NCBI GenBank assembly: GCA_002862715.1
Contig: PKDV01000088.1
Coordinates: 1-35,691, forward strand
Reading direction: 5' to 3'
From: Flavobacteriaceae bacterium
GTDB lineage: Bacteria > Bacteroidota > Bacteroidia > Flavobacteriales > Flavobacteriaceae
Length of the DNA: 35,691 bases
The position numbers were made by a program, and so were the translations under genes. Under the pieces are notes generated by a model. The model searched no databases. It was not told the origin of the DNA and worked only from the letters and a program-made list of their open reading frames with translations. This document shows, in pieces, positions 8,403 through 35,691 of the stretch. The stretch's first letter is position 1. The number at the start of each line of letters is the position of its first letter.

Positions 8403-10028
8403 ATGATTAATAGTTTTTTTAATGTTCCAAAACCCAAAAATGAGCCAGTTTTAAACTATAAAAAAAATAGTCCTGAGAGAAAATCTGTATTGAATGAATA
8501 TGACAAACTATTTAATACAAAAATTGATATCCCATTATATATTGGAGATGATAAAATATTTTCAAAAAAAAGAAAAAAAATTTTTCCTCCTCATAACCAC
8601 AAACATGAACTTGGATCTTACAGTATTGCTGAGAAATTGGATGTCAAAAATGCAATAAAAAGTTGCCTAAAGTCTAAAGAAAAATGGGAAAATTTGTCAT
8701 TTGAAAATAGGTCCTCTATTTTTTTAAAAGCAGCTGATTTAATTTCTGGAAAGTATAGATTTAAAATTAATGCAGCAACAATGCTTGGACAATCTAAAAA
8801 TATATATCAAGCTGAAATTGATGCTGCATGCGAATTTGCAGATTTTTTGCGTTTTAATGTTTTATTCGCGTCACAAATTTATTCGAACCAACCAATTCAA
8901 AGTAATGGAGTAATAAACAGGCTCGAATACCGAGCTCTTGAAGGCTTTATTTACTCGATTACTCCATTTAATTTTACTGCAATTGCTGGTAATTTGTGTG
9001 CTGCACCTGCTCTAATGGGTAATGTTGTTGTTTGGAAACCTAGCGATTATCAAATTTACTCAGCTAATGTAATAATGGAAATTTTTGAGGAAGCGGGTTT
9101 ACCAAGCGGAGTTATTAATATGATATCTGGAGATCCAAATGAAATTTCTGAAATTGTTCTGTCTCATAAAATGTTTTCAGGACTTCATTTCACAGGTTCA
9201 ACTGAAATTTTCAAAATTCTTTGGAAAAAAATTAGTAACAACCTAACGAAATACTTGAACTACCCCAGAATTGTTGGGGAGACTGGTGGTAAAGATTTTA
9301 TTCTCGCACACAAGACAGCAAAAATTGATGAATTAGTTACTTCAATAATTAGAGGTGGTTTTGAATTTCAAGGACAAAAATGTTCAGCAGCTTCTAGAAT
9401 TTATTTGCCAAAATCTATTTCTAAAAAAGTAATTGAAAAATTAAAAGATAAATTATCAGAGTTATCCATTGGTTCGCCAAATGACATGAACAACTTTATT
9501 ACATCAGTTATTCATGAAAAATCTTTTGATAAAATTGTTGATTATATTGAAAATGCAAGAAAAGACAAAAATGCAAATATAATTTATGGTGGGACATATG
9601 ATAAATCAATTGGTTACTTTATAAAACCAACTCTAATATTAACTGAAAATCCAAATTACATAACAATGCGTGAAGAAATTTTTGGTCCAGTCGTAAGCAT
9701 TTTTGAGTATGAAGATGAAGATTTTAATAAAACCTTAGATCTAGTAAATAATACTTCAAAATATGGACTAACAGGTGCAATTTGTTCTCAAAATAGAAAC
9801 ATTATTAAACATGCTACAGAAATTTTAAAAAATGCAGCTGGCAATTTTTATATCAATGATAAACCTAGCGGTGCAGTTGTTGGTCAACAACCTTTTGGTG
9901 GAAGTCGGGCATCAGGTACAAATGACAAGGCAGGATCATATTTAAATTTACTCAGATGGGTTTCTCCAAGGTTAATTAAAGAAACCTTAAATCCACCTAG
10001 TAATTACAAATATCCTTGCATGGACTAG
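8403..10028 (+). CDS. pruA: L-glutamate gamma-semialdehyde dehydrogenase (1-pyrroline-5-carboxylate dehydrogenase)
   Basis: 541 aa ALDH-fold protein; SITPFNFTAIAGNL, VGETGGKDFILAH, catalytic FEFQGQKCSAASR, GQQPFGGSRASGTNDKAG. Confidence 0.92.
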   Translation: MINSFFNVPKPKNEPVLNYKKNSPERKSVLNEYDKLFNTKIDIPLYIGDDKIFSKKRKKIFPPHNHKHELGSYSIAEKLDVKNAIKSCLKSKEKWENLSFENRSSIFLKAADLISGKYRFKINAATMLGQSKNIYQAEIDAACEFADFLRFNVLFASQIYSNQPIQSNGVINRLEYRALEGFIYSITPFNFTAIAGNLCAAPALMGNVVVWKPSDYQIYSANVIMEIFEEAGLPSGVINMISGDPNEISEIVLSHKMFSGLHFTGSTEIFKILWKKISNNLTKYLNYPRIVGETGGKDFILAHKTAKIDELVTSIIRGGFEFQGQKCSAASRIYLPKSISKKVIEKLKDKLSELSIGSPNDMNNFITSVIHEKSFDKIVDYIENARKDKNANIIYGGTYDKSIGYFIKPTLILTENPNYITMREEIFGPVVSIFEYEDEDFNKTLDLVNNTSKYGLTGAICSQNRNIIKHATEILKNAAGNFYINDKPSGAVVGQQPFGGSRASGTNDKAGSYLNLLRWVSPRLIKETLNPPSNYKYPCMD

Positions 10029-10642
10029 GAAATTGGAATAAAAATAATTTTTTTTGTTTTAAAAAATTCCTCAGAATAATCTGAAGATATTTCATAAATT
10101 TCAGCCTTACACAATCCCTCAAGCTCTTTTTTTAAATCACCACCTTTAAGTAAAATCAATCCATGTTTTTTATTTTTTGATTTTTTTATTTTATTATTAG
10201 CCCAACTAAGTAATGTTTTTGTATCAGCTACAGATCTGCAAATCAAATAATCATATTTTTTTTTAACAAATTCTAATCTTATAGATTTTGTAGTGATATT
10301 TTTTAAATTCAAACTTTTTATTACATCATTCACAACAAATATTTTCTTTTTTTTTGAATCAATTAATGTAAAATTCACGTGAGGAAATAATATAGCCAAT
10401 GGTATTCCAGGAAAACCTCCACCAGTTCCAACATCAATTATATTTGTGTCATTTGAAAAATGTTTAAACTTTGCTATTGACATTGAGTGCAGTACATGTC
10501 TAACATAGAAGTTTTTAAAGTCATTTCTTGAAATGACGTTGATTTTATTATTCCAAAAAGCATAAATATCATAAAGAGATGTAAATTTTTCTCTTTGGAT
10601 TTCCGTTAGGTTAGGGAAATATTTAAAGACTTCTTGAACCAT
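10025..10642 (-). CDS. rsmG: 16S rRNA (guanine-N7) methyltransferase RsmG
   Basis: IIDVGTGGGFPGIPLAILFPH SAM motif plus RsmG-like N-terminus. Track start is a TTG at 10654; ATG at 10642 (MVQEVFKYFPNL) more likely. Confidence 0.93.
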   Translation of the reverse strand: MVQEVFKYFPNLTEIQREKFTSLYDIYAFWNNKINVISRNDFKNFYVRHVLHSMSIAKFKHFSNDTNIIDVGTGGGFPGIPLAILFPHVNFTLIDSKKKKIFVVNDVIKSLNLKNITTKSIRLEFVKKKYDYLICRSVADTKTLLSWANNKIKKSKNKKHGLILLKGGDLKKELEGLCKAEIYEISSDYSEEFFKTKKIIFIPIS

Positions 10643-10726
10643 TATACTTAACAAAAATAAGTAAGATGTTAATTAAATTTTTTATTCATTAATATTGAAC
10701 AATTTATATTTATAAAAAATTTATAA

Positions 10727-26091: not shown

Positions 26092-27879
26092 TTGGCATCT
26101 TTAGAAAAACATAATCAACCTCTCGACAGTAGACTGGCTAAACATCTACTCAGAAGAGCATGTTTTCACTATTCTCAGGAACTTTTAAATGAATCTGAGG
26201 GAAAAACTCCAGAACAAGTTTTATCAATCTTAAAAAAAAACAAAGAGTTTTTTTGGGACTGGCCTTATGATGTTGTACCGTATGGACAAAATACGTCATG
26301 CCCGGGTGAAACACACGCTTCATGGCTCGAAGACCCTAGTTGGTCTAACAGTAAATATTCTTGTGGACAGAACAGAAAAAGAGCTATTGTAGCTGGGTGG
26401 TGGTGGTTTAATATGATTCGACAAAACAACATTTATGATAAGCTTACATGGTTTTTATTTACAACTTTTACATTATCCAAAGATGATGGATCGGGAAAGT
26501 CAGCCCATTTCTTTGATTATTTGAATCTTCTATCTTTTTACTCTGATAAAAGCATTAAAACTCTTGCAAAAAAAATAACCTTTGACAATTCGATGCTTTA
26601 TTATTTGGACAATTCCGACAACAGCAAAACCAGCCCAAATGAAAATTATGGAAGAGAATTCTTAGAGCTTTTTACTATTGGTAAAGGTCCACAGATTGGT
26701 GATGGAGATTATACAAATTACACAGAACATGATGTTGTTATGGCTTCTAAAGTTTTTACCGGCGTAAGACTTAAACCAAACAGAGATACATTTGATTCTG
26801 AAACTTCTGGCTCGCCGCACTATCCTAATGGAATTCCATGTGGATATATACAAATCAATAGGCATGAAACTTCTAATAAAACTTTTAGTCATGCATTTAA
26901 CAACACAACAATTAATGGTGGCTCTAACGAAAATTCGATTCGCCAAGAATTAGATGATTTTGTTGAAATGATTTTTGAGAAAGACGAAACTGCAAAAAAT
27001 TATGTAAGAAAGCTTTACAGGATGTATGTAAAAAGTGAATGGGACGACGAAATTGAACAAGATATAATTTCACCTTTAGCAAATCAACTTAAAAATAATG
27101 GATATAATTTGATTGATACTTTAGAAACCCTTCTTTGTTCAAAACATTTTTTTGATTTAGATGATTCAAATTCAAATGATGAGAACATAGGTGCTATGAT
27201 AAAAAGTCCTTTGCAATATATAAGCGAAATTATAAGCCTTTTCAAAATTCAAATACCTGATGCTAGTGCAACTCCACCTGAAATTGGAAAAACCCTTGAC
27301 AATGATGACGAATTATACAATTTTTACAGATTTTGGTATTGGTTTTTACATAATAGTTTTTTTGTTTCAACTGGAATGGGTTTTTTCGCTCCCTCGACTG
27401 TAGCTGGATATGCTGGTGATTATCAAGGACCAATGTATGATAGAGCATGGTTTAATTCTAATACATTATTGGGTAGATATAACACAATTTTATCTTTTAT
27501 TGGTAAAAGTTATAATGGAGATAACAGAAATGGTAATGACCAAATTGCAGGAAAATTTGTAACTAATACTGGAAATTATTACTACAGAAGAATTTGGACA
27601 ATTTTTAATTGTGTAAGTTTTATTGCAGAAAACTTTTCTAATCCATCTGAACCAAAAACTTTAATTGAAGACATTTCAAAACTTTTGTATTGCGAATTAA
27701 TTGATGACGATAGAATTGATTATTTTAAAAGGTTTTTAGTTCCTGATAGTGAGCCTGATTACTATTGGACTGCCGCCTGGAATGATTATTTATCTAGCAA
27801 TGATGACACACAAGTTAAACTAAGGATAAGCCAGTTGCTAATTCATATGACTAATGCACCAGAGTTTCAAACAATGTAA
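26092..27879 (+). CDS. DUF1800 family protein
   Basis: N-terminus LDSRLAKHLLRRACFHYS, NYGREFLELFTIG, TNYTEHDVVMASKVFTG, VRKLYRMYVKSEWDDEI; directly followed by a DUF1501 gene, the usual partner. TTG start; in-frame stop at 26074-26076. Confidence 0.85.
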   Translation: MASLEKHNQPLDSRLAKHLLRRACFHYSQELLNESEGKTPEQVLSILKKNKEFFWDWPYDVVPYGQNTSCPGETHASWLEDPSWSNSKYSCGQNRKRAIVAGWWWFNMIRQNNIYDKLTWFLFTTFTLSKDDGSGKSAHFFDYLNLLSFYSDKSIKTLAKKITFDNSMLYYLDNSDNSKTSPNENYGREFLELFTIGKGPQIGDGDYTNYTEHDVVMASKVFTGVRLKPNRDTFDSETSGSPHYPNGIPCGYIQINRHETSNKTFSHAFNNTTINGGSNENSIRQELDDFVEMIFEKDETAKNYVRKLYRMYVKSEWDDEIEQDIISPLANQLKNNGYNLIDTLETLLCSKHFFDLDDSNSNDENIGAMIKSPLQYISEIISLFKIQIPDASATPPEIGKTLDNDDELYNFYRFWYWFLHNSFFVSTGMGFFAPSTVAGYAGDYQGPMYDRAWFNSNTLLGRYNTILSFIGKSYNGDNRNGNDQIAGKFVTNTGNYYYRRIWTIFNCVSFIAENFSNPSEPKTLIEDISKLLYCELIDDDRIDYFKRFLVPDSEPDYYWTAAWNDYLSSNDDTQVKLRISQLLIHMTNAPEFQTM

Positions 27880-27882
27880 AAA

Positions 27883-29538
27883 ATGAGAAGAAGAGAATTC
27901 ATTAAACTTTCTGCATCAGCTTCAGCCCTAGGTTTACTTCCATCAGAAATTGGAAGGACTCTTAAAGCTCTAAATGGCTCCGTTAATTGTGATACAACAA
28001 ACAGAAGGCTTGTTCTTATAGAACTAAAAGGAGGAAATGACGGTTTAAATACAATAATCCCAATGGATAACTACAGTTATTATAAAAATTCTCTGAGGCC
28101 AGATATACATATTCCAGTCAATTCTAGTAATTATAATTCTTTAGTTGTTGATTCATCTTTATCAGGTAGCCTTCAGGACTTAGCATTTAATCCTGCACTA
28201 CTAATTGGAAATAATCAGGGTTTTAAAGGACTCTATAATGCTGGAATGTTAAGAATTATGCAGTCAGTTGGTTACCCTTCACAAAACAAAAGTCATTTTG
28301 CATCAATTGATTTGTGGGCTACAGGAAATGATGGAAATAGTTGGGATAACGGAAAGGAAAGTGGTTGGATGGGTAGATTTATGGAAAATGCGTATGCTGA
28401 AGTATTCCCCACTAATTATCCATTTGCTATCCAAATGGGCTCGAACAATACTTGGCTTGGTTTCCATGCTGAGCATGAACATGGACTGGCATTAAATATT
28501 GAGGGGCAAAACTCTGAGAATTTTTATACAATTTTAAGTGGATTGGCTGGACAAGCTCCAACTAATATACCAAATACTCACCACGGAGATGAAATTAATT
28601 ATATAGTTCAAACGGATGCTTTTTCAAATACATACGCAAATTCAATTGAAACAGCATACAACAACGGCTCTAACTATAATGATTCCGCATATTATCCAGA
28701 CACAGACTTATCTAATCAGTTAAAGACTGTTGCCAGATTGATTAGAGGAGGAATTGAAACAAAAATATTTTTAGTCACTATTGGAGGTTTTGATACTCAT
28801 AACAACCAAAACCAATCAAATAATGATATTAATGGTAGACATACTGAACTAATTAAAGAGCTTTCTGGAGCTGTTGATGCATTTGTCAGTGATATAAATT
28901 CAGATTCAATTGGCGATGATATTGTGGGTTTAACTTTTTCAGAATTTGGGAGAAAAGCCAAGCAAAACAATAACAGGGGAACTGATCACGGAGAAATTGC
29001 TCCTATGTTTGTTTTTGGAAAGCCAGTCAAAGGCGGAATTTCTGGAAATAATGTTGACTTAAATGAGGCCAATTCAAATAATAATTGGCAAATTCAAACT
29101 GTCCAATATGACTACAGACAAGTGTTTTCTACATTAATGCAAGACTTCTTAGGTGCTAATGATAGTGTTATTGACAAAACTTTTTTTGATCATACAAATC
29201 AAGTAAGTTTTTCTGATAAGAAAATTAGTGATATTATAAAACCAAATAGTAAATTGGACCCATCATGCTATTCTCTGGGAATTTCGGATGTAAAAAATTC
29301 TAATAATTTGATAGTTTATCCGAATCCAGCTGTAGGGTTATTATTTATTAAAAGCAGTAATTTAAAGGAAGCTGAATATTCATTATACTCCTTAGACGCA
29401 AAATTGGTAATGAGAAATAAGTTTAACTTTATTTCTGGTGAACATAAAATTGATATATCAAATGTTAATAGTGGAACATACCTTTTTGAACTATCAAGCA
29501 ATTCAAAAAAAACTTATAAAAAAATTATTATTAACTAA
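27883..29538 (+). CDS. DUF1501 family protein with Tat-like signal and T9SS type A C-terminal sorting domain
   Basis: N-terminus MRRREFIKLSASASALG; LVLIELKGGNDGLNTIIPMDNY, TIGGFDTHNNQ, SEFGRKAKQNNNRGTDHGEIAPMFVFG; C-terminus NNLIVYPNPAVGLLFIKSSN...GTYLFELSSNSKKTYKKIIIN. Confidence 0.9.
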   Translation: MRRREFIKLSASASALGLLPSEIGRTLKALNGSVNCDTTNRRLVLIELKGGNDGLNTIIPMDNYSYYKNSLRPDIHIPVNSSNYNSLVVDSSLSGSLQDLAFNPALLIGNNQGFKGLYNAGMLRIMQSVGYPSQNKSHFASIDLWATGNDGNSWDNGKESGWMGRFMENAYAEVFPTNYPFAIQMGSNNTWLGFHAEHEHGLALNIEGQNSENFYTILSGLAGQAPTNIPNTHHGDEINYIVQTDAFSNTYANSIETAYNNGSNYNDSAYYPDTDLSNQLKTVARLIRGGIETKIFLVTIGGFDTHNNQNQSNNDINGRHTELIKELSGAVDAFVSDINSDSIGDDIVGLTFSEFGRKAKQNNNRGTDHGEIAPMFVFGKPVKGGISGNNVDLNEANSNNNWQIQTVQYDYRQVFSTLMQDFLGANDSVIDKTFFDHTNQVSFSDKKISDIIKPNSKLDPSCYSLGISDVKNSNNLIVYPNPAVGLLFIKSSNLKEAEYSLYSLDAKLVMRNKFNFISGEHKIDISNVNSGTYLFELSSNSKKTYKKIIIN

Positions 29539-31195
29539 AATTGTAGAAGTAGCATTTTTTTTGTTTTTTGCTACTATTTCATTACAGTTGGTTAATGGTC
29601 AATCGAAAAAAAAACCAAACATCGTTTTTATTGTAATTGACGATTTAAACGACTTTCCTGAAGGGTTTTATGGCCATCCACAAGCTAAAACGCCACATAT
29701 AAAGGCTTTGGGTAATTCAGGTGTACGCTTCAAAAATGCATATTCAAATAATCCAATGTGTGGACCCTCTCGTGCTAGTTTGTTTACTGGAGTCTATCCG
29801 CATAATTCATCACATTTTTGGATGAAACCATGGCTAGAAAATGACGTTTTAATTAACACAAAAACAATTATGGAAAAATTTAAGGAATCTGGATATTATG
29901 TGGTTGGTAGTGGTAAAGTTCTTCATCACAACAAACTTGATGTATGGACAGAATATAAATATAAAGCTGATTATAGTCCTTTTGTCTATGCTGGTGATTA
30001 TAATTCAGAAAAGAAACCTATTTCACACCCTGATGTACCTGCTCCATTTCGTACCAATAGAATTGTCGATGGGCTGAACATGGGAGGTGGTTTCATTGAT
30101 GGTTCATTTGGACCAATGAAAAATTTTGGAAAACAAACATTCAATGGTGAAAGGCTGTGGTGGGTCTATGGTGGCTTCAGGAGTGGAAAAGAATTAAAGT
30201 ACATTAACGAAGAAAATCGTGATTTAACCCCAGATGAATTAAATGCAGAATGGGCACATGATAAACTTTTGGAATTAGCAGAAAAACAAAATCAAAAACC
30301 CTTCTTTTTGTCTGTAGGTTTTCTTAGACCTCATACACCGCTTATTGTACCTCAAAAATACTTTGATATGTATCCGCTCGATAGTATTAAATTAGTTAAC
30401 ATTCTACCTAGGGATAAAGATGATACATTTCTCCATATGGTAGATCAGTTCGAAACTAAAAAAAGAAGAACTCGTTCAGTTGAAATGTTTGAAAATCTAA
30501 TAGCATCTTATGAAAATCCGCTTGAGGGACTCAAACGTTTTACTCAAGCATATTTAGCTTGTGTGAGTGCTGTCGATGACAATGTAGGTAAGGTAATTAG
30601 CGCTATTAATAATAGTTCACTTAAGGACAATACAATAATTATTTTGACGAGCGATCATGGCTGGACTATGGGACAAAAAGACCATATTTATAAAAATTCG
30701 CTGTGGGAAGAAAGTACAAGAGTTCCCCTTATTATACGTGTTCCAAGCATTAGTGCTCCAAACTCCATAGTGAATCATCCTGTTTCATTAATCGATTTAT
30801 ATCCAACTATGCTTGAACTTGCAGGAATTAACAATGAAACAAAAAAAAATAACAAGGGACACGAACTTGATGGATATTCTTTAGTCCCTTTTATAAAAAA
30901 TCCTTTAACAACAAATTGGGATGGTCCAAAAGGAGCCTTATCAGTAGTTTACAGCTCCGATATAAATCAATATATACCGCAAAACCACCACTATTCAATA
31001 GTAACAAAAAATTTTAGATACATTGTCTATAATACTGGACAAGAGGAATTATATGATAGAATAAGTGATCCAGATGAACATGTAAATTTGATTTATAAAA
31101 ACTCTCATCCAGAAACTAAATATCTTAGAGATTTGATAAAAAGTATTACTTACCCAATGATTCCACAAGGAATAAGTTTGGTTGAAAACAAATAA
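29438..31195 (+). CDS. Secreted type I sulfatase (iduronate-2-sulfatase-like)
   Basis: KPNIVFIVIDDLND, formylglycine signature CGPSRASLFTG, GSGKVLHH, TSDHGWTMGQKDHIYKNSLWEESTRVPLI. Signal-like KKLIKKLLLTKIVEVAFFLFFATISLQLVNGQ; exact start unresolved. Confidence 0.92.
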   Translation: MNIKLIYQMLIVEHTFLNYQAIQKKLIKKLLLTKIVEVAFFLFFATISLQLVNGQSKKKPNIVFIVIDDLNDFPEGFYGHPQAKTPHIKALGNSGVRFKNAYSNNPMCGPSRASLFTGVYPHNSSHFWMKPWLENDVLINTKTIMEKFKESGYYVVGSGKVLHHNKLDVWTEYKYKADYSPFVYAGDYNSEKKPISHPDVPAPFRTNRIVDGLNMGGGFIDGSFGPMKNFGKQTFNGERLWWVYGGFRSGKELKYINEENRDLTPDELNAEWAHDKLLELAEKQNQKPFFLSVGFLRPHTPLIVPQKYFDMYPLDSIKLVNILPRDKDDTFLHMVDQFETKKRRTRSVEMFENLIASYENPLEGLKRFTQAYLACVSAVDDNVGKVISAINNSSLKDNTIIILTSDHGWTMGQKDHIYKNSLWEESTRVPLIIRVPSISAPNSIVNHPVSLIDLYPTMLELAGINNETKKNNKGHELDGYSLVPFIKNPLTTNWDGPKGALSVVYSSDINQYIPQNHHYSIVTKNFRYIVYNTGQEELYDRISDPDEHVNLIYKNSHPETKYLRDLIKSITYPMIPQGISLVENK

Positions 31196-31251: not shown

Positions 31252-31261
31252 AACTCTCTTG

Positions 31262-32131
31262 ATGCAACTTAAATACTCAATAACTGAAAATGATGAAAAT
31301 CAAAGTTTTTTTGCTGAGCGTAAGACCATCCCTTATTTTGGTGTTGATTGGCATTATCATGAAGAATATGAATTGCTATACCCAATAATTGGAACTGGAG
31401 TAAGAATTGTTGGCGACAGTATGGAATATTTCAACGAAAACGAATTGGTTCTTTTAGGAAGTCAATTACCACATCTATTTAAAAATGAAATAAATGATTC
31501 CTCCAGAGAGGTTGATTATATTGTTATAAAATTTAAACCATATATAATAAATGCATTTGTGGATAATTTTCCAGAATTTTATAAAATAAAACAAATGCTA
31601 GAAATTGCCAGAAGAGGACTAATTTTTGAATCTATGGATAGTTATCTTCTGCTAAAGGATATAACTAGAATTTGCGAGTTAAGAGGTGCTGATCGCATAA
31701 TTCAGTTATTAAAAACTTTAGTTAAACTATCCAATATTAATCAAAGAAGATGTCTAGCTTCAGAAAATTTCTATCCTACTACTGGTAATGCTGATAAGGT
31801 GGACCGCTTACAGCGAGTAATTAATTTTATTGCTAAAAATTATGTTAAAGAAATTAGTCTAAAAGAATTATCAGACCTAACATTCATGACAACAAATTCA
31901 TTTTGCCGATTCTTTAAAGAACGTACTGGTAAAACTGCTTTTCAATTTCTTCGAGAATATCGAATTAGCAGGGCATGTCAAATGATTATAAACAGTAGAA
32001 AATCAATATCACAAATTTGTCATGATACAGGTTTTAACTCTTTTTCAAGTTTTAATAGAGTTTTTAAGTCAGTTAAGGGGCTTTCGGCAAGCGAATATAA
32101 AAGCAAATATAAAAGACTTAATAATTTATAA
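31262..32131 (+). CDS. AraC family transcriptional regulator (cupin sensor + HTH)
   Basis: Cupin N-terminus (DWHYHEEYELLYPIIGTGVRIVGD); AraC HTH (ISLKELSDLTFMTTNSFCRFFKERTGKTAFQFLREYRISRACQMI, ISQICHDTGFNSFSSFNRVFK). ATG at 31262 preferred over TTG at 31259. Confidence 0.93.
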   Translation: MQLKYSITENDENQSFFAERKTIPYFGVDWHYHEEYELLYPIIGTGVRIVGDSMEYFNENELVLLGSQLPHLFKNEINDSSREVDYIVIKFKPYIINAFVDNFPEFYKIKQMLEIARRGLIFESMDSYLLLKDITRICELRGADRIIQLLKTLVKLSNINQRRCLASENFYPTTGNADKVDRLQRVINFIAKNYVKEISLKELSDLTFMTTNSFCRFFKERTGKTAFQFLREYRISRACQMIINSRKSISQICHDTGFNSFSSFNRVFKSVKGLSASEYKSKYKRLNNL

Positions 32132-32133
32132 TC

Positions 32134-33177
32134 TCAGTTTAGACTGTTGGAATACCCAAGAACAATTGATGCAATTATAAGAACAGCCAATCCAATTAAT
32201 AATAAATTAAAAGGTTTTTTAGCATCCCTCCACTCTCCAGCATTGTATGCCCATATGTTACTAACAATTAATGATAAACCTAATAACATTGGCCATCCAA
32301 CAATATTACCAAGATTATTGTCTGAAGCACCATTCATTAATGCAGCGCCTTGGCCGTACAAGCCAAGTGCAGCAAACCAACAAAGTCCAGCAATAATAGA
32401 CCACATGTATGCTTTTTTAGAACCTGAAATTGAAAAGTTTGACCAGCTTTTATTCTTAAAAATTAATACTAAACTATATGAAGCATTCATTGCATAAGCT
32501 CCAATAAATACGATAAGCCAAGCAATTAAACTTGCATTGCGTCCATTAACTCCATAGTTATCAGCTATAGTAGTAACATCATCATTCACATTTGTATGAC
32601 CAACAGCCAAAAGAGATGAAAGAATTCCACAAACAACTGCAATTCCAATACCTTTTAAAATATTTCCACCCGAAAGTGAAGAATTTCCTTGAAGTTTGTC
32701 CCTGTCAATTCCAGCTTTTGCAGTAATCACAACACCAATTATTGTAATAACTAGTCCCGATATAACGTAAGGAAATTGTGGTAAACTTGTTGCATTTTCG
32801 TTCTGTAAAAGCGGAATAAGTGCTCCAAGCGTTCCAGCTATTCCCATTACAATACCCATTGTTAATGATAGACCAATGTAAGGAACGCTAACTCCAAACA
32901 TTATTCCTCCAATTCCCCACAAAAAACCAAATAAAATTGCTATATAAGCTGCATGTTTTGCAATGGGATCGGAAAAAACATCAATTATAATTGGACTAAC
33001 GTTTGGTACTGAAATAAATGTCCACAAAAGAGGAAATAGTACCATAGCAACAGTGACGTGTACTAACCACCATGACTCCCACTTTAAAGGTGACATATAC
33101 TTCATTCCAACTCCAAATGAACCTTGAAATATACTTGCAATAATTACGAGTAAAAAAGGTAAAATAATTAAATCCAT
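32134..33177 (-). CDS. RhaT-like (L-rhamnose/H+ symporter family) sugar permease
   Basis: About 10 TM segments; IIASIFQGSFGVGMKYMSPLKWESWWLVHVTVAMVLFPLLWTF and FGFLWGIGGIMFGVSVPYIGLSLTMGIVMG resemble RhaT. Substrate inferred. Confidence 0.75.
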   Translation of the reverse strand: MDLIILPFLLVIIASIFQGSFGVGMKYMSPLKWESWWLVHVTVAMVLFPLLWTFISVPNVSPIIIDVFSDPIAKHAAYIAILFGFLWGIGGIMFGVSVPYIGLSLTMGIVMGIAGTLGALIPLLQNENATSLPQFPYVISGLVITIIGVVITAKAGIDRDKLQGNSSLSGGNILKGIGIAVVCGILSSLLAVGHTNVNDDVTTIADNYGVNGRNASLIAWLIVFIGAYAMNASYSLVLIFKNKSWSNFSISGSKKAYMWSIIAGLCWFAALGLYGQGAALMNGASDNNLGNIVGWPMLLGLSLIVSNIWAYNAGEWRDAKKPFNLLLIGLAVLIIASIVLGYSNSLN

Positions 33178-33178
33178 A

Positions 33179-33943
33179 TTATAGTTTTAGTTTATTAATA
33201 ATGTTTGTGTATGCATCCATGATAATGCCAACATCGACAGAATAGGCAATGTACTGAACACCAATGTCAGACCATATTTGAACATCATCGGGACTCTCAC
33301 AAAAAGTCCCAATAATTTTATTGCAATCTTTTGCTAATTTCACTGATTCCTTCATTTTATTAATAACATCTGGATGATTTATCTGTCCAGGGAATCCACA
33401 TGATTGCGATAAATCGTATGGGCCAAGAAAAATTACATCAATATCATCAATTCCCATAATTTCTTTTAAATTATTTATACCATTAATTCCTTCGATATGT
33501 ACAATTGTTAGAATTTCAGAATTTGCAGAATCAAAGTATTTATTTTTATTTAATTTTGAGTACGACGCACTGCGCACGTACCTACACATTCCGCGGTCTC
33601 CTTTGGGATAATAATAACTTGAATTAACTACTTTTTGTGCATCTAACACATTATTTATCTGTGGAACTTGTACTGACTGTACACCGATGTCAAGTATTTG
33701 TAAAATATTAGTCGGACTATTTTCTCGAATTCTAACTACCACTTCTAAACCATGCGATTGAGCAGCATTTAAAAGATTTTGAATAGACTCAATACTTAGT
33801 GGACCATGTTCCATATCAAGAATAACAAAATCAAAACCTGCCAGGGCTGATATTTCAACTAAACTAGTTGAGCTAATTTTACAAAAAGGGCCAATTACTG
33901 AATGTCCATTAATTAGTTTTTCTTTGAGTTTATTTTCTTTCAT
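33179..33943 (-). CDS. HpcH/HpaI family aldolase (2-keto-3-deoxy sugar-acid type)
   Basis: ALAGFDFVILDMEHGPLSIESIQNLLNAA, GVQSVQVPQINN, GDRGMCRYVRSASYS, FLGPYDLSQSCGFPGQINHP. Confidence 0.9.
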   Translation of the reverse strand: MKENKLKEKLINGHSVIGPFCKISSTSLVEISALAGFDFVILDMEHGPLSIESIQNLLNAAQSHGLEVVVRIRENSPTNILQILDIGVQSVQVPQINNVLDAQKVVNSSYYYPKGDRGMCRYVRSASYSKLNKNKYFDSANSEILTIVHIEGINGINNLKEIMGIDDIDVIFLGPYDLSQSCGFPGQINHPDVINKMKESVKLAKDCNKIIGTFCESPDDVQIWSDIGVQYIAYSVDVGIIMDAYTNIINKLKL

Positions 33944-33944
33944 T

Positions 33945-35381
33945 CTAAAGTGCTATTGAAACTCTTTTTTTTACTAAATAATCATCGAGTGCCAGGTGTG
34001 AGCAATCGTGCCCAATGCCACTGTTTTTGATTCCACCATGTGGTAAATATATCGCATATTTTACTCCATTTACTTGTACTTCGCCAAACGAAAGTTCTTC
34101 TGAAAAGCGTTGAATTCTTTGATTATTATTTGTAAAAATATATGATGCAAGTCCATATTCAGTATCATTAGCGAGGGACAAAACATCATCATCATTTGCA
34201 AACTTCATAAAAGGGGCTATGGGTCCAAATGTCTCCTCTTTAAAAAGTAGCATTTCGGTTGTCATCTCAGAAATAACTGTGGGTTGAATCCAGTTTCCTT
34301 CCTCTTTTCCTTTTGGAATTTTCCCTCCAGCTAATAGAATTCCGCCCTTTTTAATCGCATCATCTATCAAAACAAACATACGATCTCTGTCTTTTTTTGT
34401 TATCATCGGACCCATATCTGGCTTTTCATTAATTCCAAAACCTAGTTTTATTTTTTTAACTCGATCCACATATTTTTTTAAAAAAATTTCGTAGATGCTA
34501 GTGTGAATGAAAAATCTGTTCGCAGCAACACAAATTTGCCCACTATTACCAAATTTCAAAGCTATTGCCAAATCTAGTGCCTTCTCAACGTCTGCATCCT
34601 CAAAAACTATAAATGGTGCGTTTCCACCCAACTCCATGCTCAATCTTTTAATGGATGTTGCGCTGTCCGTAATAACCTTTTGACCTGTAGCTGTTGATCC
34701 AATCATAGTTAGTACGGCAGGAATCTTACTTTTACTCAAGGTTGTTGCAACTTCTTCTGTTGGACCAGATAATATATTAACTACACCGGCTGGAAAATCA
34801 ATATCATGAAGAATTTCACCCAACACATAAGCAGAAAGTGGAGACAAGGGTGAAGGTTTAATTATAATGGAACAACCAGAGGCTAGAGCAGGTCCGAGTT
34901 TGAAGCCAACATTTAGAAGTGGAAAATTCCATGCCAAATAGGCCACTACAACTCCAGCAGGTTGTTGAATCATTTTATGAGTATGTGTATTTTCATAATC
35001 TGGGATTTGCTCATCTCTTAAGTTTTTCATTGCATTAGGATACCACTCTAGGGCATTGGTGATAGCTTCAATATCTTCAAAAGCTGCCTCATAGGTTTTA
35101 CCCATTTCATAAACTATAGACAATCTCAAAATATGTTCTTTTTCAATGACAGCGTCACGAAGTTTTAGCATCCACTTAGTTCTTTCTTCTAAAGACAATT
35201 TAGACCAATGTTTAAAACCATTTATCGCAGAGATAAGTGCATTTTCAGCATCTATCTTTCCAGCTTGCGCTACTTGAGCTATTGGCTTACCATTTGCAGG
35301 ACAAATCACATTCGATTTAGTCATTAGCTCGCCTTTAATTAGCTTACCACCTATATACATTTTTTTATAACCAAATTCCAT
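33945..35381 (-). CDS. NAD(P)-dependent aldehyde dehydrogenase (succinate-semialdehyde/lactaldehyde dehydrogenase-like)
   Basis: AYLAWNFPLLNVGFKLGPALASGCSIIIKPSP, MELGGNAPFIVFEDAD, FGNSGQICVAANRF, EETFGPIAPFMKF. Track start 35414 overlaps the upstream gene; ATG at 35381 preferred. Confidence 0.92.
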   Translation of the reverse strand: MEFGYKKMYIGGKLIKGELMTKSNVICPANGKPIAQVAQAGKIDAENALISAINGFKHWSKLSLEERTKWMLKLRDAVIEKEHILRLSIVYEMGKTYEAAFEDIEAITNALEWYPNAMKNLRDEQIPDYENTHTHKMIQQPAGVVVAYLAWNFPLLNVGFKLGPALASGCSIIIKPSPLSPLSAYVLGEILHDIDFPAGVVNILSGPTEEVATTLSKSKIPAVLTMIGSTATGQKVITDSATSIKRLSMELGGNAPFIVFEDADVEKALDLAIALKFGNSGQICVAANRFFIHTSIYEIFLKKYVDRVKKIKLGFGINEKPDMGPMITKKDRDRMFVLIDDAIKKGGILLAGGKIPKGKEEGNWIQPTVISEMTTEMLLFKEETFGPIAPFMKFANDDDVLSLANDTEYGLASYIFTNNNQRIQRFSEELSFGEVQVNGVKYAIYLPHGGIKNSGIGHDCSHLALDDYLVKKRVSIAL

Positions 35382-35388
35382 ATAAAAA

Positions 35389-35691
35389 TTATTGCAATAA
35401 TTCTTTAATATCAACTACCCCGATGTTATGATTTACAAATTTGTGTAGTTCGTCTTCATTAACTTCTAGGCCGAGCCCAGGTGAACTAGGTACTTGAATT
35501 TTTCCATTTTTCATTTCTAATTTAGGAAATGTAAGCTGCTCACGCAATGCATTTTCGGTTTGATCGAATTCCAATAAAAAATCTGGGCTAAACATTCGTC
35601 CAGGAAGTGATTCCAAATTTGAAATAAAATGTAATGCGACATGTATTCCTATAGAACTACCCCATGTGTGAGGAACTATATCAACTCCATA
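35389..35691 (-). CDS. C-terminal part of an enolase-superfamily (mandelate racemase/muconate lactonizing-like) sugar-acid dehydratase, truncated by the window edge
   Basis: Frame is open to the edge: YGVDIVPHTWGSSIGIHVALHFISNLESLPGRMFSPDFLLEFDQTENALREQLTFPKLEMKNGKIQVPSSPGLGLEVNEDEL. The track start at 35616 is an internal TTG. Confidence 0.85.
   Translation of the reverse strand, partial: YGVDIVPHTWGSSIGIHVALHFISNLESLPGRMFSPDFLLEFDQTENALREQLTFPKLEMKNGKIQVPSSPGLGLEVNEDELHKFVNHNIGVVDIKELLQ

Follow-up and report, generated by a model that had tools for sequence, protein, structure and literature searches.

The window analysed here is a stretch of 35,691 nt, one complete contig of a 1.37-Mb assembly that is 87% complete. 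It contains three closely packed genes, for a DUF1800 protein, a DUF1501 protein and a sulfatase, which the initial annotation had proposed as a single secreted system. The question raised by this locus is which of these genes form a functional unit. The neighbourhoods of related genes, the export signals and the predicted folds were compared, and the favoured reading is a unit of two genes, DUF1800-DUF1501, which make up a gene pair of a known kind.

Gene content and the conserved pair

The genes from the pair to the right end of the window are as follows:

26092..27879, + strand: DUF1800 protein of 595 aa with a TTG start, without an N-terminal signal and without a T9SS tail (PF08811, E 1.5e-57)
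27883..29538, + strand: DUF1501 protein of 551 aa with the twin-arginine motif MRRREFIKLS and a T9SS type A tail at residues 478-551 (PF07394, E 3.6e-18; PF18962, E 2.3e-14)
29438..31195, + strand: type I sulfatase of the Cys type (CGPSR), start codon uncertain (PF00884, E 6e-50)
31259..32131, + strand: AraC-type regulator, between the sulfatase and the sugar-catabolism genes (PF12833, E 7.6e-20)
32134..33177, - strand: RhaT-like sugar symporter (PF06379)
33179..33943, - strand: HpcH/HpaI-type aldolase (PF03328, E 1.3e-32)
33945..35414, - strand: aldehyde dehydrogenase (PF00171, E 2e-138)
35389..35691, - strand: C-terminal part of an enolase-superfamily dehydratase, truncated where the contig ends (PF13378, E 2.5e-09)

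The three packed genes, their common + strand and the 3-nt gap between DUF1800, for which TTG is the only start codon, and DUF1501 were found as first described. The overlap of DUF1501 with the sulfatase depends on the start chosen for the latter, being 101 nt (GTG 29438), 77 nt (ATG 29462) or 53 nt (TTG 29486), and since that start is uncertain the overlap itself is uncertain. The tight packing, with its short gap and overlapping frames, suggests that the sulfatase is co-transcribed with the pair in this genome. A promoter and terminator scan gave no more signals than were found in shuffled sequences.

Of the 70 Flavobacteriaceae loci that contain this kind of DUF1501, 69 have DUF1800 as the gene immediately before it; the sole exception is L144, where the gene is short and the locus is cut by a contig end. 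A second search gave the same order in 23/23 evaluable loci; a few genomes are possibly common to both sets. The two genes were on the same strand in 69/69 cases with a median gap of 7 nt, and the window likewise has PF08811 directly upstream of PF07394, on the same strand and with a short gap, which is how the pair was defined. DUF1501 is present in 69 of the 121 sampled Flavobacteriaceae genomes, that is, in more than half, and DUF1501 and DUF1800 also occur in other phyla.

The pair is recurrent and has no established function, as had been stated initially. Among the papers accessible without subscription, none was found that gives DUF1800 or DUF1501 a function, and few name either family. 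Both families were described beside bacterial chitin synthases, in a predicted shared operon whose DUF1501 has a twin-arginine motif (PMC5122149). Our locus is similar in that both families again occur together, but the window contains no chitin synthase, its DUF1501 has a T9SS tail, and its sulfatase neighbour is local. The chitin synthase operons also contain a gene named "sugar epimerase" (PMC5122149). In the window, the upstream GalE gene was considered as a member of the unit and rejected, as it was not beside the pair in related loci. Other galactose-type genes, recognised from their sequences, are located near the pair in L021 and L037.

Beyond DUF1800 and DUF1501 themselves, the neighbourhood has no generally conserved member. 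The recurrent neighbours of the pair are housekeeping genes: methionyl-tRNA synthetase (metG) at +1 in 24/88 loci, and an aldehyde dehydrogenase, taken for PruA, at -2 in 12/88. In a Tenacibaculum locus (L035, 6582-12357) the genes on either side of the pair are relatives of the window genes 8403-10028 and 10025-10654; in the window itself these two are direct neighbours. The corresponding slot, between a PruA-type aldehyde dehydrogenase and rsmG in Tenacibaculum-type genomes, is empty in the window at 10025-10028, 16 kb from the window pair. The position of the pair has therefore shifted during evolution.

Export signals of the two proteins

Export signals were judged by motif pattern and hydropathy. 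The RRx[FLM] motif was found within the first 45 residues of 66/70 DUF1501 proteins, compared with 4/317 other proteins with a hydrophobic N-terminus from the same loci, and in 0/69 DUF1800 proteins. A hydrophobic N-terminus was present in only 5/69 DUF1800 proteins and absent in 64/69. T9SS tails were detected on at least 19/70 DUF1501 and on 0/69 DUF1800 proteins. In a Bacteroidota-wide sample, to which one betaproteobacterial and one verrucomicrobial genome also contributed loci, R[RK]x[FLM] was found in 33/33 evaluable downstream genes.

By motif and hydropathy the window DUF1501 has the features of a Tat substrate, with the twin-arginine motif before the h-region and TatC present in this genome. 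The proposed T9SS export of this protein was confirmed at the level of its type A sorting tail (PF18962 as listed above; TIGR04183), which also matched the structure of a T9SS substrate (8glk, E 2.1e-5). Tat and T9SS signals on DUF1501, with usually none on DUF1800, suggest that DUF1800 hitchhikes on DUF1501. Tat hitchhiking, in which a signal-bearing subunit brings along a partner that has no signal, is established for other complexes, such as E. coli PaoABC (PMC4273604) and the Ni-Fe hydrogenase (cited in PMC9251779). The DUF pair resembles these complexes in having neighbouring genes, one partner with a twin-arginine signal and the other with none, but its complex and co-export are predictions, it adds a T9SS tail, and some of its DUF1800 members have a signal of their own.

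Based on the distribution of signals and on the precedent of other complexes, co-export of a DUF1800-DUF1501 complex is favoured, and we give even chances to the reading in which this complex is the functional unit and the sulfatase belongs to the adjacent sugar locus. DUF1800 and DUF1501, which were modelled as single chains, would fold and associate in the cytoplasm, and the complex would cross the inner membrane through Tat on the DUF1501 signal, with DUF1800 as the hitchhiker. In flavobacteria with the tail, T9SS would then move DUF1501, and perhaps also DUF1800, to the cell surface, where DUF1501, as a metal-dependent enzyme of the alkaline phosphatase superfamily, would be a hydrolase or transferase with a phosphate- or sulfate-ester substrate. 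Tat export followed by T9SS would be an unusual route, for which no paper was found in the literature.

Some DUF1800 proteins carry a Sec-type or lipoprotein-like signal peptide of their own (5/69 in the family and several elsewhere), so hitchhiking is not universal. These signals also bear on a rather unlikely alternative, that the pair stands alone without hitchhiking and each protein is exported or retained separately, DUF1800 acting for example as a cytoplasmic chaperone or maturase for DUF1501 before Tat. Such a role would be in line with the first position of DUF1800 in the gene order and its lack of export signals in most flavobacteria; moreover, Tat substrates often require maturation in the cytoplasm. 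However, in the lineages whose DUF1800 has its own signal, this protein acts outside the cytoplasm.

The DUF1800 N-termini of L178, L179, L183, L185 and L191 contain RR-like motifs (MNRREFF, MDRRTTF, MHRRSFL), mostly without a following hydrophobic stretch, and look as if they were decayed Tat signals. The AF2 model of the window DUF1800 was confident and all-helical (pLDDT 80, pTM 0.85). No fold relative in the PDB was better than E 2, and a search by sequence detected no solved relative.

Co-export of the pair is a hypothesis that merits a test. With export signals as a rule only on DUF1501 and no generally conserved third gene, what had been a vague guess of glycan processing becomes a direct test of co-export and of alkaline phosphatase-superfamily chemistry.

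The sulfatase and its neighbours

The third gene is a type I sulfatase, as initially annotated, with a PF00884 domain and the C/S-x-P-S-R formylglycine motif in the form CGPSR: NPMCGPSRASLFTG. Its closest PDB match was 6hhm, an S1_7 ulvan sulfatase, which suggests a possible ulvan-type substrate. The best ortholog among 40 relatives (64%) was found on contig C9 of genome G004, whose DUF pair is on another contig, C13. Next to this ortholog lie genes for RhaT (59% to the window RhaT), an aldehyde dehydrogenase (56% to the window copy) and an enolase-type dehydratase (48% over the compared region). Further flanking genes encode two beta-helix proteins, a KDPG-type aldolase, a PfkB kinase and a GH2 enzyme.

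To the right of the sulfatase and the AraC-type gene, the window contains RhaT, the HpaI-type aldolase, the aldehyde dehydrogenase and the dehydratase end, from which we infer a putative deoxy-sugar or sugar-acid catabolic locus that borders on the DUF pair. Given these genes and the context of the ortholog, the three-gene arrangement is probably a junction. Judged by gene context, the sulfatase is a neighbour that we assign to the sugar-catabolism locus on its right and place outside the DUF pair. The sulfatase frame has no ATG near the signal peptide (29438-29560), unlike the G004 ortholog. The rearrangement that placed the window sulfatase next to DUF1501 may have altered the 5' end of this gene.

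The closest relatives of the window DUF1501 are those of L020, L021 and L022, with 64-67% identity. A gene for a formylglycine-generating enzyme directly follows DUF1501 in L020, in L021/L137, which apparently come from the same genome, in L022 and in L144. The active site GGSFLCHxSYC of this enzyme was read in L020, L021 and L022, and sulfatases are located downstream within about 3 kb in L020 and L022. The formylglycine-generating enzyme at +1 may reflect a single arrangement passed on within a clade rich in sulfatases. In the genome analysed here, the end of contig C61 (L210, 6627-7097) carries a fragment of this enzyme with 70% identity. It is conceivable, but improbable, that in this clade of marine Flavobacteriaceae with small genomes the pair was recruited to the use of sulfated glycans. 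The +1 slot would then hold either the formylglycine-generating enzyme (four sister loci) or a sulfatase (here), and the Tat- plus T9SS-addressed DUF1501 would be an alkaline phosphatase-superfamily enzyme of new specificity working with them at the surface.

Neighbourhood counts led us to reject the sulfatase as a conserved third member: none of the 70 Flavobacteriaceae loci and none of the 23 related loci has a sulfatase at the +1 position of DUF1501. With a sulfatase HMM applied within the 20-kb loci, 1/276 genes near the pair was a sulfatase versus 1/689 further away in the same loci (Fisher p = 0.49). The neighbourhood enrichment that the initial annotation had expected was thus not found, and the 20-kb stretches around most pairs contain no sulfatase at all. 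The genome contains a single DUF1800 and a single DUF1501 but 17 sulfatases, some of which are clustered, and because there are 17 in 1.37 Mb a chance sulfatase neighbour is plausible.

These counts, together with an ortholog linked to sugar-catabolism genes instead of the DUF pair, make it very unlikely that the three genes form one secreted system jointly processing sulfated or phosphorylated glycans at the cell surface, in spite of the tight packing, the fold superfamily that DUF1501 and the sulfatase probably share, the sulfatase activator (formylglycine-generating enzyme) at +1 in the sister loci and the sulfatases 2-3 kb away in two of them. The cassette is not supported as a general system. 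The three-gene arrangement is a local and largely ordinary feature of this genome, and should not be taken for a system.

Fold and putative active site of the DUF1501 protein

The PF07394 match of the window DUF1501 covers only profile positions 244-351, and the search by sequence found a solved relative for the T9SS tail region only. In a Foldseek search with the model (pLDDT 70, pTM 0.71), the matches besides T9SS tails were mainly sulfatases, the lipoteichoic acid synthase LtaS and YejM, with E about 1e-4 and TM-scores of only 0.2-0.4. In profile comparisons, the planctomycete-type DUF1501 (full-length PF07394, ~490 aa) matched the sulfatase profile with E 2.3e-5 and a probability of 76%, while the match of the window type was weak (probability 4.8%). 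The sulfatase was nevertheless the best match of the window type among local families, save DUF1501 itself, the planctomycete-type DUF1501 and one hit to the signal peptide only. These matches suggest that DUF1501 probably has an alkaline phosphatase-like core, with moderate support because the TM-scores are low.

The predicted likeness to alkaline phosphatases thus has moderate support for the core and does not extend to the canonical metal site. The motifs GGFDTH, SEFGR and GTDHG, first noted in this protein, are real and conserved and hold most of the invariant columns. In the alignment with sulfatases, SEFG or GEFG replaces the SDHG metal motif, and GTDHG or DHH follows further on; the canonical Asp-His was not found at the aligned position. 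The DUF1501 site is therefore altered and non-canonical. Compared with type I sulfatases and other members of the superfamily (6hhm, LtaS, YejM), the window sulfatase is a typical CxPSR member, while the DUF1501 model matches the folds of these proteins, with an alignment at the C-terminal metal-ligand strand, but differs from type I sulfatases in SEFG, in the separate GTDHG motif and in having no CxPSR.

Residues D304, H306, D368 and H369 are invariant, and D53, S137, H138 and E354 nearly so (E354 in at least 90%); S137 could be the nucleophile and D53 the first ligand. A degenerate, non-catalytic binding or scaffold component with this fold, to which the change from Asp-His to Glu-Phe in the profile alignment might point, has little probability, as the conserved residues resemble a maintained active site.

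The planctomycete-type DUF1501, a label that presumably reflects where the type is common, shares with the window protein the Pfam family, the twin-arginine motif and the EFGR and DH motifs. It differs in being unpaired with DUF1800 in the ten loci examined, and a lipoprotein-like gene of ~1100 aa lies upstream in the three loci checked. Many Flavobacteriaceae contain several DUF1501 copies, with up to nine matches per genome, mostly of this full-length type and unpaired with DUF1800 (L146-L155).
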